Shown: in pieces, positions 849 to 50,656 of the stretch
How the letters are laid out: every line of letters starts with the position of its first letter
Position numbering within the stretch: the first letter of the stretch is position 1
Assembly (NCBI GenBank): GCA_015491865.1
Contig: WFVD01000006.1
Span: 62,001 to 126,000 of the forward strand
Origin: Gammaproteobacteria bacterium
GTDB lineage: Bacteria; Pseudomonadota; Gammaproteobacteria; SZUA-140
DNA length: 64,000 nt
Direction: 5' to 3'
The notes under the pieces: generated by a model
The model's database searches: none
What the model saw: only the letters and a program-made list of their open reading frames with translations
What the model was told of the DNA's origin: nothing
Position numbers and translations under genes: made by a program

Positions 849-960
849 GCCGAAAAAAACAATAACCCTTTGTTCTAAAAGGCGTTAAATGTGCTATTGC
901 ACAGAAAGGCAAGGCGTTAGATACTACAACTAATCACACCGATGCCGATATAGCATTTAT

Positions 961-3900
961 GTGTATAGGGATGTTTTTATCAGGCTGCGGAGCCTTTCTC
1001 TCGTCAACGCTCTTTTTCTCAAGGTAAGCCACTTGTTTAATCACACTGCGACAAATTGCCCGTCAAACCGTTCTAGCGCTCAGCTGACAGTGTGGCTGAT
1101 GCTGGCCTGCCTGCTGCCGACCAGCGCAATCGCTGTCCCAACCCAGTGGCAGTGGGCGCACCCTTTTCCACATGGCAATCAGATTAACGCCACCATCTGG
1201 GGAGATTCTGAGTTTATTGGGGTGGGGGACGGCGGTAATATCATCACCTCCCCTGATGGTGCCATTTCCGATAACTGGACGCTTGTGGAGTCAGAGACCA
1301 GCCAGAACCTGAATGACATCGCCTGGAACGGTAGTGACAGCCTGGTTATGCAGAGCGGTGAAAAGCGTTATGTCAGCGTCGGTGACCAGGGGGTCATCAT
1401 CAGCACAGACAGCGATATGCAGTGGCAGCTTCGCAACTCCGGGGTGACGCATAAACTCACCCAGGTGATCTGGGTCGACAAGCCAGCACTTGAAGACTCC
1501 TTTTTTTTAGTCATTGGCGAATACACCACCACTATTAATGATCCCGTTAACGGCTCAATCAGCCGGCCTGCGGCGGCCATTCTCACCAGTCCCACCGGCT
1601 TTAGCACCTGGAAGCTTGAGTCCGCCACCCTCAATCCCGACCGTTTTGGTAACATCCCCCCTCCACGCCTCAATGGTGTCACCTGGAATGGCTCGCTGTT
1701 TGTTGCAAGCAGCGATGCGGGTGCTATCCTCACCAGTGATGACGGCATCGCGTGGCACACACGCTCAATAAACGGCATTGCATGGAATGGCAGCGACTAT
1801 CTGGCCGTAGGCGATAACGGCCTGGCGCTCACCAGTAGCGACGGCACTAGCTGGACCACACTCACCTCACCTGTCACCACTAACCTCCACGCGGTGACAT
1901 GGGGGGACGACCGTTTTGTCATTACCGCCGCTAGCGGCACCATCATCAATGCAAAAAAAACGACGCTCTGGACATGGAATATTGAAGATGCAGATCCAGA
2001 TGGCTTACTGACCTCAACAACACTGCGGGGGATCGCTAGCAACGGTGGCCTGCTGGTTGCCGTCGGCGATAACGGCACGATTTTAACACGCCCCCACAGC
2101 AGTGCCTCACTATCCCCGACATGGACCGCTCGCATTTCCGGAACAACTAGCAATACACCGGAGAACCTGTACGACATCGCCTTAAACAGCGCTAATTTTA
2201 GATTTTCAGTAGTCGGTACAAACGGTACGATACTGACCAGCACAAACGGTATTGACTGGGCACCCCCTTCAGCGGTGTCACCCGCAGAATTTACCACCGA
2301 TCTGCTCAATATCTCGTCAGGTAATAATCTGATGATCGCCACAGGCAAAGCGGGCACTATCATCTCATCGAATGATGATGGTGCTACATGGACAGAGTGC
2401 GCCACCTCAAGCTGTGACAGTATTGCCGATGAGTGGCTGCTCGATAGCAGCTGGGACGGTACCAGCCATATTGTTGTAGGCAGCAATGGCACCCTGATCA
2501 CCTCTACCGACGGTATCAACTGGTCTGCGCACTCTGCACAGACAACCGAACACCTCTTTAGCATCGCCAGTGATGGTGCATCAAGAGTCCTTATCGGCGG
2601 CGAATATAGCACCCAGATAGCGACAAATGACGTAAGCGCGATTCTCTCCAGCGACCTTGTGATGACCAGCATGCCCGATGCCACCACCGTCACCAGTGGG
2701 CGCATCACACAGGAAGCACTCAATAAGATCCTCTATTTCAACAACCGATATACAACCGTAGGTAGTGCTGGCACCATCTTAACCAGTGACAACGCTATCT
2801 ACTGGACACCTCCGAACAGTATCACCGGGGGTAGCGAGATAGCCAATGATCTGTTTGATATTAGCGTCACAGATAGTGATGATAACCATCTCACCGCTTC
2901 CGGCGCATGGGGAACACTACTACAGAGCACTGACAACGGTCTAAACTGGAACAGCATCGGTCCACCTCTCACTGGCAATGCTGATTTCCTTAACGGCATC
3001 ACCTCCAACCTGCTATCAAATCCCGGCACCCCGACATTGGTAACAGCTGGAAGCGGTGGCGCCGCCTTCACCAGTACCAATAACGGCACTAGCTGGAATG
3101 CGACAGCCGGCCCCACTCAGACTATTGAAGATATTAATGCACTGGCAGCCAGTGATGCATTACTGGTTGCTGTGGGTAATCAAGGGATTATTTTAAACAG
3201 TAGTGACAGCGGCATAAGCTGGGCAACGCAGGTACCCACATCAACCTGCGGTACCAACCATCTTCGTGCCGTCAGCTGGAGTGACGTCACCTCACGTTTT
3301 GTCGCCGTCGGTGACTACGGCACCGTCTGCCATAGCGACGACGGAACCACCTGGCAACCACCACCTGTTTCAGCCAGCTTGCCCGATAGCTCAAGTACCT
3401 TATATGGCATCACCTGGGGAAAAGAGCAGTTTGTTGCGGTCGGTGGCTCTGCACTTAATAGTGTTGTTTACACCAGCCCGGATGGTGATCTCTGGACAAT
3501 CAGAGACTCAAACGAACCCTACATCCTGCGCGACATCACCTGGGATCAGGACCATTTTATTGCTGTCGGTGATAGCGGCACTATCATCACCAGCCCTAAA
3601 GGGATCTCCTGGACCAGAAAGAGCAGCGGCACTACCACGAACCTCACAAATATTGTGGTGAACGAAACGACGGCCCTTGCGACAGGGGCAACAACAGCGC
3701 CTCTCGCCACTACTATAATTCGCCGAACTGGAAACGTCTGGCAGGGAGGAGAGGATCTGGAATTGGCCAACTTTTTCATCAACGACCTCGCATTTGGCGG
3801 CACCCAGTTTGCAGCTGTGGGCCCTTCTGGTGAGATCGCAGTCAGTGAAAATGGTGAAGAGTGGAAGCTGGTGACAACCGGCACTAACAGCCTGTTTAAA

Positions 3901-47588: not shown

Positions 47589-48548
47589 TTATTCTGCCTG
47601 CCTCAGGTCTTCATCCAGTACCTGTAATAAGTGGGCCATATCGAGCGGTAGCGGTGCCTGCCAGTGAACCATTTCGCCGCTCTCAGGATGCACCAGCCCG
47701 AGCTTTGCCGCATGCAGTGCCTGGCGCTTAAAGGTTCGCAGCACACCATTGAGCGCCTCGCCACACCCTTTGGGTATACGCAGGCGGCCGCCGTAGACCG
47801 GGTCTCCCACAATTGGATGTCGGATATGCGCCATATGCACACGGATCTGGTGAGTTCGGCCGGTCTCCAGTTTCACCAGGAGATGGGTGTGGGCACGGTA
47901 ACGCTGCACCACCCGGTAGTGGGTGCGCGCCGCCTTGCCATTTGCGACCACCGCCATACGGGTGCGCACGGCAGGGTGGCGTCCGATCGCTGCATCGACT
48001 GTGCCCCCAGCCGTCATCACACCGTTCACCACGGTCTGGTATTCACGCTCGAATTCACGCCGCTGAATCTGCTCGGTCAGTACCTTTTGCGACTTAAGGG
48101 TACGCGCCACCACCAGCAGACCACTGGTCTCTTTATCTATGCGGTGGACGATGCCAGCTCGCGGCACCAGGGTAAGCTCAGGCGCATGGTGGAGCAGTGC
48201 ATTCAGCATCGTCCCCTCTCGATTGCCGGCCGCCGGATGAACCACCAGCCCGACCGGCTTGTTGATGACCAGCAGCGCTTCATCTTCATAGACAATATCG
48301 AGTGGAATCGCCTCCGGCTGAGAATCGACCTTCTCTTCCCGTTCGACCTGAATCTCAATCCGTTCACCACCACGTAGTTTATCTTTTGAACGCAGCTGCT
48401 TGCCATCGACCAGCACCGCGCCATCACTCACCCACGACTGCAACCGTGCGCGCGAATAGTCCGAAAAGAGCTGTGCCAGAATCTTATCGAGACGCTGCCC
48501 CGCCAGCTCATCGCCAACAGTCGCTGTAAAATGTTCCACTTCACTCAT
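47589..48548 (-). CDS. rluD: 23S rRNA pseudouridine synthase RluD
   Basis: The 319-residue enzyme makes pseudouridines in helix 69 of 23S rRNA. It has an N-terminal S4 domain (LDKILAQLFSDYSRARLQSW), and the catalytic aspartate in IVHRIDKETSGLLVV. LETGRTHQIRVHMAH and DPVYGGR are diagnostic. The ATG at 48548 is preferred over one at 48584 because the conserved part begins there. Divergent from the BamD-type genes, as in E. coli. Confidence 0.95.
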   Translation of the reverse strand: MSEVEHFTATVGDELAGQRLDKILAQLFSDYSRARLQSWVSDGAVLVDGKQLRSKDKLRGGERIEIQVEREEKVDSQPEAIPLDIVYEDEALLVINKPVGLVVHPAAGNREGTMLNALLHHAPELTLVPRAGIVHRIDKETSGLLVVARTLKSQKVLTEQIQRREFEREYQTVVNGVMTAGGTVDAAIGRHPAVRTRMAVVANGKAARTHYRVVQRYRAHTHLLVKLETGRTHQIRVHMAHIRHPIVGDPVYGGRLRIPKGCGEALNGVLRTFKRQALHAAKLGLVHPESGEMVHWQAPLPLDMAHLLQVLDEDLRQAE

Positions 48549-48717
48549 GACAAACTGCCACCCAACCCTTTTATTCACGTGCATATAAGCTCATAATCCA
48601 TTCACAAGTGATCAACCTGCGTCGTACTAACGACATATAACCACTCATGTGGTGGCCTGCCAAATCTAACTAGATCCGGCCAGATAAAGGACACCGCAGA
48701 TAACAGGAACTGAACCT

Positions 48718-49830
48718 ATGCGACCAACCAACATAGTATACTGTTTTGTCACCGCATTTTCGCTTCTGCTCGCAGGCTGCGCCACCACCAGCGAGCATCA
48801 CGCCGAACAGCAGCAGGCTAGCCAGCGCACAGCAGCCAGCACCCTCTACAGCGCCGGCAAAGAGGCGCTGAACATTGGTAACCTGGCCGGGGCCATCCGC
48901 CATTTCAACGCGCTGATCACGCAGTACCCGGCGGATAAATTTGCTCAGCAGGGAGAACTTGAACTGGCCTACGCCTACCATAAAAGTGGCCAGACCAGCG
49001 CTGCTATCGCCACTACCGAACGCTTTATCACAAATTACCCGCAACATAAAAACATCGACTACGCCTACTACCTACGCGGCCTTACCGCCTATGAAGCGGC
49101 GCTCGCAAGATTTGATCGCAGCATGGACTCAACACCCTATGAGGCCCCGATGGCCATCGAATTTCTCAACGAACTCAAAAACCGCTTTCCTGACGGAAAG
49201 TACAGTGAAGACACAACCCAGCGCATTAACACCCTTAACGAAAGAATTGCACAACAGCGGTTATTCTCGGCAAAACAGGAGTTAGACCAGAACAATCCGG
49301 CCAGCGCAGCCTTACTGGCCAAAAGTGTGATGGAAGAGTATCCACAATCATCAGCCATTCAGGAAGCAGCCATTATCACAAACCAGGCCTATCAAATGCT
49401 TGAGCTGAGCGATGCAACAGAACCTCCTGCAACCGCCACGCAGAGACCCACAACAGCCAGCAGGCCACAGCAGCCAGCAGCGACTATCACTCAGCCCGAC
49501 GCTACTGCGGATAACATGATGCCACCCAGCAATACGATCAGAGAGACATCATGGGTGATCGCCCAGCCCCCAGAGCGTTTTACCATTCAGCTGCTCGGCA
49601 CCGAAAATGAGGCGCTGCTGCGCCATCAGATCAAAAGCAATGGGCTGTTAAATGAGGTCGCCTATTATAAAAAATCACGAGAAGGGGCACCGTGGTACTC
49701 ACTGATCTACGGGAGCTACCCTAACCGGAAGGCCGCCAACGCTGCCGCTCAGGCTTTGCCACCCGCACTACGCAAGGGCAAACCGTGGATCAGAAAGATC
49801 GGCGACATCCAGGCCTCGCTCGGCGAATAA
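48718..49830 (+). CDS. BamD-like lipoprotein fused to a SPOR domain
   Basis: The 370-residue protein has a lipoprotein signal with LLLAGC (Cys21), then BamD-type TPR repeats (about 40-230) that include HKNIDYAYYLRGL, nearly the same as HKNVDYAYYLRGL of the true bamD 1.5 kb downstream. A Pro/Gln/Thr-rich linker (about 232-285) leads to a C-terminal SPOR/DamX-like domain (FTIQLLGTENEALLRHQI, PWYSLIYGSYPNRKAANAA). SPOR domains bind denuded glycan strands at division septa. The fusion suggests an outer-membrane factor directed to the septum. It sits between rluD and bamD, where relatives have only bamD, so duplication is likely. Confidence 0.85.
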   Translation: MRPTNIVYCFVTAFSLLLAGCATTSEHHAEQQQASQRTAASTLYSAGKEALNIGNLAGAIRHFNALITQYPADKFAQQGELELAYAYHKSGQTSAAIATTERFITNYPQHKNIDYAYYLRGLTAYEAALARFDRSMDSTPYEAPMAIEFLNELKNRFPDGKYSEDTTQRINTLNERIAQQRLFSAKQELDQNNPASAALLAKSVMEEYPQSSAIQEAAIITNQAYQMLELSDATEPPATATQRPTTASRPQQPAATITQPDATADNMMPPSNTIRETSWVIAQPPERFTIQLLGTENEALLRHQIKSNGLLNEVAYYKKSREGAPWYSLIYGSYPNRKAANAAAQALPPALRKGKPWIRKIGDIQASLGE

Positions 49831-49835
49831 TAGGC

Positions 49836-49841
49836 TATAAT
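49836..49841 (+). promoter_or_regulatory. Possible -10 hexamer of bamD
   Basis: GGCTATAATCC gives a perfect TATAAT 63 bases before the bamD ATG, between the two BamD-type genes. A short hairpin GAGGC-ACCGA-GCCTC follows. No good -35 is seen 17 bases upstream, as that region is still coding. If used, it would let bamD be made independently of its paralogue. Confidence 0.3.
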
Positions 49842-49903
49842 CCAACTTTAAAGAGGGAGGCACCGAGCCTCTGAAGTTTCGTTATTTAACCAGGCTGGAT
49901 CCG

Positions 49904-50656
49904 ATGCGTGCTTTATATCTCACTGTCCCCTTACTGCTTGCAATGCTCTCGGGCTGTTCGTCGCTGCAGGAGAAGGATGATACTGAACTCAGCGCGGATG
50001 CCCTCTATGAACGCGCAAAAAAAGCGCTTGATAGTGGTGATTATGAGATGGCAATCAGCCATTTTGATTCACTTGAAACCCGTTTCCCATTTGGCGTGTA
50101 TGCGCAACATGCCCAGCTAAATTCGGCCTACGCCTATTACAAATTTAATGAACCAGAATCGGCCATCGCCAATGCCGAGCGTTTTATCAAGACCTACCCA
50201 CGCCACAAGAATGTCGATTACGCCTATTACCTGCGCGGCCTGGCAAAGTTCAACCAGGACAAGGACAGCATCGATCGCATGCTTGATCTCGATATTACCG
50301 AGCGGGAACCCGGCTCGATAGAGGCCTCTTTCTTCTATTTCAAGGAGCTGGTTGAGCGCTACCCCAATAGCCGCTACAGCGCCGATGCAAGACAGCGCAT
50401 GATTCACCTGCGCAATCTACTGGCACAGCATGAGCTGCATGTCGCCAGCTTCTACCTGAAGCGTGGCGCTTTTGTTGCCGCAACCAATCGCGCAAAATAT
50501 ATCATTGAAAATCTCCCCCGCACCCCGGCGATTCCAGAGGCGCTCACCATTATGGCGGCGGCATATCAGCAACTGGGGCTACCATCACTGGCTGAAGATA
50601 CACTGCGCGTACGTCGCCACAATTTCCCTGACTACACTGCCAGCCGCGCGCTGTAG
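49904..50656 (+). CDS. bamD: Outer membrane protein assembly factor BamD
   Basis: The 250-residue lipoprotein (signal ending MLSGC, Cys18) has the five TPR repeats of BamD: DALYERAKKALDSGDYEMAI, AQHAQLNSAYAYYKFNEPES, HKNVDYAYYLRGLAKF, and others to the C-terminus. The length equals E. coli BamD (245). With BamA it forms the essential core that inserts beta-barrels in the outer membrane. It is divergent from rluD-pgeF in the standard gammaproteobacterial layout, but with an additional BamD-like gene inserted between. Confidence 0.96.
   Translation: MRALYLTVPLLLAMLSGCSSLQEKDDTELSADALYERAKKALDSGDYEMAISHFDSLETRFPFGVYAQHAQLNSAYAYYKFNEPESAIANAERFIKTYPRHKNVDYAYYLRGLAKFNQDKDSIDRMLDLDITEREPGSIEASFFYFKELVERYPNSRYSADARQRMIHLRNLLAQHELHVASFYLKRGAFVAATNRAKYIIENLPRTPAIPEALTIMAAAYQQLGLPSLAEDTLRVRRHNFPDYTASRAL

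Follow-up and report, generated by a model that had tools for sequence, protein, structure and literature searches.

The window, that is, the whole stretch of DNA that was analysed (64,000 nucleotides), carries two genes for BamD-type lipoproteins in tandem on the plus strand, separated by 73 bp (Table 1). In the product of the first gene, here called bamD-SPOR, a lipoprotein signal peptide and a TPR domain are followed by a linker and a SPOR domain, while the second gene encodes a canonical BamD. The tandem pair, as well as the lipobox, the TPR region and a motif common to both proteins, had been part of the original prediction for this locus and were found at the positions listed in the table. 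In E. coli the gene order is yfiH-rluD // bamD, and bamD-SPOR sits inserted between rluD and bamD both in the window and in its relatives. A promoter scan gave no signal above chance.

Table 1. Genes and sequence features of the bamD-SPOR/bamD locus, in window coordinates.
Feature	Position	Strand	Basis
rluD, divergent neighbour, marker of the conserved rluD//bamD site	47589..48584	-	gene order
bamD-SPOR gene, 370-aa outer-membrane lipoprotein (BamD-type TPR, linker and SPOR)	48718..49830	+	sequence, profiles
Signal peptide and lipobox LLLAGC21, Ala at +2	48718..48780	+	sequence
BamD/YfiO TPR domain, aa 39-235	48832..49422	+	PF13525 3e-40; Foldseek
HKNIDYAYYLRGL motif, common to BamD-SPOR and BamD	49045..49083	+	sequence, conserved columns
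Low-complexity linker, aa 236-277, predicted disordered	49423..49548	+	pLDDT, dN/dS
DamX-type SPOR domain, aa 285-360	49570..49797	+	PF05036 2.4e-9; PDB 2lfv 1.6e-9
Canonical bamD, 250-aa lipoprotein, BamA-docking residues intact	49904..50656	+	profiles, residue comparison
HKNVDYAYYLRGL motif in canonical BamD	50204..50242	+	sequence

The two main domains both score above the curated cut-offs of their profiles. BamD-SPOR matches both the YfiO family PF13525 (138.6 bits, cut-off 25) and the BamD model TIGR03302 (7e-49, 166.4 bits, cut-off 81.4), and its C-terminal domain passes the SPOR profile PF05036 (37.8 bits, cut-off 21), the closest solved SPOR domain being that of DamX (PDB 2lfv). The TPR part groups with BamD, and a CpoB/YbgF-like identity is rejected by score (TIGR02795, 33.6 bits against a cut-off of 90.1). 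Neither of the two outcomes named beforehand as refuting the original prediction, a failed SPOR profile search and a CpoB-like TPR domain, therefore occurred. The DamX model NF008153 reaches only 44.3 bits on BamD-SPOR, under its cut-off of 256. The neighbouring canonical BamD scores higher than BamD-SPOR with the BamD profiles (PF13525, 1.9e-69; TIGR03302, 3.9e-82, 275 bits) and has a BamD as its top PDB match (9pxg_D, 4e-73), although with the equivalog model NF008119 both proteins fall below the cut-off (BamD-SPOR 113 of 363, canonical BamD 199). An AlphaFold2 model of BamD-SPOR, built from a 25-sequence alignment, has a mean pLDDT of 83.6, with values mostly above 90 in the TPR domain, about 80-95 in the SPOR domain and below 50 in the linker (aa 232-262). 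In Foldseek comparisons the modelled TPR domain matches E. coli BamD as found in the BAM complex (6lyq_D) with a TMt of up to 0.84 and an rmsd of 1.8, and the modelled SPOR part matches that of DamX (2lfv). TPR and SPOR domains were both found in all 25 full-length BamD-SPOR members scanned, and none of the 28 proteins with an automatically found lipobox has Asp at +2, the signal for inner-membrane retention. The protein is a new, conserved and testable architecture of known parts. No relevant paper on a BamD with a SPOR domain, or on BamD paralogues, was found in the literature library searched, within which BamD-SPOR is apparently undescribed.

The rluD // bamD-SPOR - bamD arrangement is present in 17 of the 20 genomes of the order that were searched, including all ten of good quality, and the three genomes without BamD-SPOR are incomplete assemblies. 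In a class-wide sample BamD-SPOR was found in 13 of 369 genomes (strict cut-off), which adds five gammaproteobacterial families (f22, f23, f75, f128 and f144) with unchanged neighbours, so that the search for this architecture suggested with the original prediction has located it in its own order and in five further families. In a phylum sample of 398 genomes only the window genome has it, with a strict cut-off and few candidates scored per genome. A canonical BamD adjoins BamD-SPOR in every case where the contig goes on. The nearest named record to BamD-SPOR, 92% identical, is from the metagenome-assembled genome ‘Chromatiales bacterium’ HyVt-459. The claim that relatives have one BamD-type gene where the window has two needs correction: it holds only for Gammaproteobacteria further removed, E. 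coli among them, and within its own family all members have the pair, several sister species carrying three copies.

The neighbourhood of bamD shows further variation. In five sister species (L044:8832-10124, L045:1407-2759, L047:72-1310, L048:8554-9792 and L050:704-1945) there is a third tandem BamD-like lipoprotein, in which the TPR part is joined to another type of C-terminal domain, itself conserved (W, YxLYLGG, CxYST ... CN), that gives no Pfam match, has no SPOR and is modelled with low confidence. The window genome encodes a separate 219-aa lipoprotein (L153:4525-5184, on G000:C31) with a C-terminal domain that shares 59% identity with that of the third paralogue; strong matches to this domain are restricted to the genus, and a few other genomes give weak hits. 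In genome G354 (L113:2-2688) bamD is preceded by two BamD-SPORs in tandem, of which the first has two SPOR domains, and in G162 a 181-aa BamD-like piece adjoining BamD-SPOR (L112:2896-3441) is probably the remnant of another tandem copy. In G054, from another family, a second BamD-like lipoprotein, lacking a SPOR domain, stands in tandem (L061:80-889 and 925-3225), possibly an independent duplication, and in G033, a genome without BamD-SPOR, a SPOR lipoprotein with Sel1-like repeats, recognised by eye, lies near bamD (L067:7453-8322).

A tree of the TPR domains places all 31 paralogues on one side and all 38 BamD-type rows, that of E. coli included, on the other, a split with a bootstrap support of 88% and a weak SH-aLRT of 35; a recent duplication inside the genus of the window is rejected (p-AU 0.026). 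Together, the split and this rejection indicate that bamD-SPOR and bamD are old paralogues and not the products of a recent tandem duplication. Because the branches are long, a single origin of the TPR paralogue is favoured, no more, and the tree of the SPOR domains is without resolution, also as to an origin from the genome’s own DamX. Purifying selection acts on both domains: in comparison with the nearest relative, dN/dS amounts to 0.119 for the TPR domain, 0.145 for the SPOR domain, 0.245 for the linker and 0.154 for the whole BamD-SPOR, as compared with 0.014 for BamD.

Binding residues are kept in the SPOR domain and mostly lost from the TPR domain. In DamX, septal localisation involves Q351, S354 and W416, and the site is lined by a basic patch of R380 and K418 (PMC6895207). 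Among 27 SPOR domains from 26 BamD-SPORs, the residues corresponding to Q351 and W416 (Q291 and W357 in the window protein) are invariant (27/27 each), the S354 position holds a small residue in 26 and Met in one, and the basic patch has Arg at the K418 position in 26 of 27 and at the R380 position in 18. With these positions kept, the SPOR part looks competent to bind denuded glycan, which is enriched at septa (PMC6895207), and septal targeting of BamD-SPOR is well supported by inference. The idea that a duplicated BamD has been joined to a SPOR domain of the septum type stands on good ground.

The docking surface of the TPR domain is another matter. The hotspots of BamD for BamA comprise Y184 and the salt-bridge residues R94 and R97, and R197 pairs with E373 of BamA (PMC11592675); R197 also lies within a substrate site, and in E. 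coli the R197A change alone leaves formation of the BAM complex intact (PMC10945584). When 36 canonical BamDs were compared with 26 BamD-SPORs (E. coli BamD numbering), K or R at position 97 was found in 34/36 versus 8/26, Y or F at position 184 in 34/36 versus 3/26, and R at position 197 in 36/36 versus 10/26, while at position 185 all 36 canonical proteins have Y and only five of the 26 BamD-SPORs have Y or F; R94 is retained only partly. The window protein reads TSKQEDL at positions 97, 181, 183, 184, 185, 187 and 197, so that at 97, 184, 185 and 197 it has T, Q, E and L, against K, F, Y and R in the neighbouring BamD. None of the 26 members has F64 or G65, which are conserved in BamD, and the PFG65 motif adjacent to the substrate-binding residues is lost with them; the D131-R135 loop is partly lost in the genus of the window. 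Fewer BamD-conserved columns are kept in the C-terminal half of the TPR domain (0.51) than in the N-terminal half (0.69), and an aromatic residue (Y/F) stands at position 62 in 22 of the 26. Three members from family f22 retain the aromatic pair YF (Y184, F185) as well as R197. Since the docking residues are mostly replaced across the 26 BamD-SPORs, docking on BamA in the manner of BamD is unlikely, though BamA might be bound in another way, and the proposal that the protein guides outer-membrane assembly as a part of BAM is disfavoured by the replacement of R97, Y184, Y185 and R197 in most members.

With a TPR part that has lost its BamA-docking surface and a SPOR part that has kept its glycan-binding residues, BamD-SPOR would most likely be a septal adaptor. 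We consider it probable that the protein is a septum-directed TPR adaptor, anchored in the outer membrane, which ties this membrane to septal peptidoglycan beside the BAM complex. The lipid would hold BamD-SPOR in the outer membrane and extend a TPR scaffold with the shape of BamD into the periplasm, a flexible linker of about 40 residues would let the SPOR domain reach the peptidoglycan, and the latter, being of the DamX type, would bind peptide-stripped glycan where the septum constricts. The TPR domain may bind another partner, for instance a peptidoglycan synthase or its activator, a Tol-Pal component or a nascent outer-membrane protein; enzymes of the PBP1A/PBP1B type are plausible clients, since DamX and DedD stimulate PBP1A and PBP1B (PMC7642682). 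By tying the outer membrane to the septal wall the adaptor could coordinate outer-membrane constriction, a role that we infer as plausible, and it would act beside a BAM complex whose intact BamD is encoded next door. The genome background weighs on the other side. The window genome also encodes two DamX-like proteins, DedD-, FtsN-, RlpA- (on G000:C13) and CpoB-like proteins (on G000:C28), the names being assigned from sequence and domain layout, as well as LpoA and LpoB; with this septal set already present, it is not evident why yet another septal factor should be needed, which counts against an adaptor. That BamD-SPOR makes up for a lost SPOR protein, CpoB, LpoA or LpoB is rejected, since all of these are present, and it seems to add to the set instead of standing in for any member. 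BamC gave no hit in the window genome, and replacement of a missing BamC was considered and rejected as well, there being no clean link: BamC and BamD-SPOR occur together in families f22 and f128, and several genomes have neither. The DamX-like proteins of the window genome (L074:7630-9186 and L075:6246-8267) have, by eye, an ATPase-like N-terminal part, and the second of them carries two SPOR domains.

Other readings give the TPR domain a more direct part in outer-membrane protein insertion. BamD-SPOR might replace or join BamD in some BAM complexes and so bias insertion towards the septum; a part in a septal BAM would make sense, because E. coli inserts its outer-membrane proteins most strongly at division sites (PMC9242858) and shows an enrichment of BAM at midcell (PMC8620860), and the retained BamD fold, R197 in 10 of the 26 members and the aromatic pair of f22 point the same way. 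Such a role is nevertheless unlikely, given that the BamA hotspots are gone in most members, the window protein among them, and are kept by the neighbouring BamD, and that BamD-SPORs lack the PFG65 motif and, in the window’s genus, some of the D131-R135 loop. In a stricter form, two kinds of BAM would coexist, a general one with BamD and one dedicated to the septum, with BamD-SPOR in the place of BamD through altered contacts. We regard this as rather improbable, although, if true, it would mean that denuded septal glycan directly steers outer-membrane protein insertion. The TPR groove could instead bind unfolded outer-membrane proteins, feeding or buffering them at the septum with no docking on BamA. 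The more BamD-like N-terminal half and the aromatic residue at position 62 would fit a holdase of this kind, but F64 and G65 are lost throughout and the N-terminal conservation may reflect the fold only, which makes it quite improbable.

Septal targeting itself can be questioned if the SPOR domain is taken as a wall anchor and the TPR domain as a spacer in a general tether between the outer membrane and the peptidoglycan, as the combination of a lipid anchor with a wall-binding domain would allow. A precedent linked to BamD is ComL of Neisseria, reportedly termed a peptidoglycan-linked lipoprotein. We give this little credence, since the denuded-glycan residues of the Q351/W416 type are invariant, denuded glycan is septum-enriched and, unlike a spacer, the TPR domain is under purifying selection. 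As to a functionless decaying duplicate or a chance fusion, BamD-SPOR does evolve faster than BamD (92% versus >99% identity to the nearest relative); yet its low dN/dS (0.15), the conservation of open frames in six families and the retention of functional SPOR residues refute this explanation, to which we attach practically no weight.

A septal adaptor of this kind would bear on the question of how the pulling-in and assembly of the outer membrane keep step with the septal wall. Coordinators other than CpoB and LpoB have been postulated for other microbes (PMC4458516), and this conserved lipoprotein, derived from BamD and equipped with a wall-binding domain of the septal type, offers a concrete, testable candidate. 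In annotation, TIGR03302 would name both genes of the pair BamD, though one of them has lost the docking residues.

With BamD/YfiO (TIGR03302, PF13525) BamD-SPOR shares the nature of an outer-membrane lipoprotein, the TPR fold and the rluD-linked locus, but it differs in the added linker and SPOR domain, in the loss of most BamA-docking residues and of PFG65, and in having an intact BamD alongside. DamX of E. coli has the closest SPOR type, with Q351 and W416 in common, and the W-x3-Q lead-in of the domain is also present in the genome’s own DamX-like proteins; DamX, however, sits in the inner membrane and has a cytoplasmic part, whereas BamD-SPOR would be an outer-membrane lipoprotein with a TPR domain. 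RlpA, too, is a septal lipoprotein with a C-terminal SPOR domain, but it has an enzymatic DPBB domain where BamD-SPOR has a TPR scaffold and no enzyme domain, DPBB giving no match in the profile search. LpoA and LpoB are outer-membrane lipoproteins that act on peptidoglycan synthases; BamD-SPOR differs from them in giving no match to PF04348 or PF13036 in the same kind of search. CpoB (YbgF), which we propose as a functional analogue, is not known to have a lipid anchor or a SPOR domain, in contrast to BamD-SPOR. It is a TPR protein of the periplasm by which outer-membrane constriction is coordinated with the synthesis of septal peptidoglycan, and the TPR part of LpoA serves a CpoB-like function (PMC4458516).
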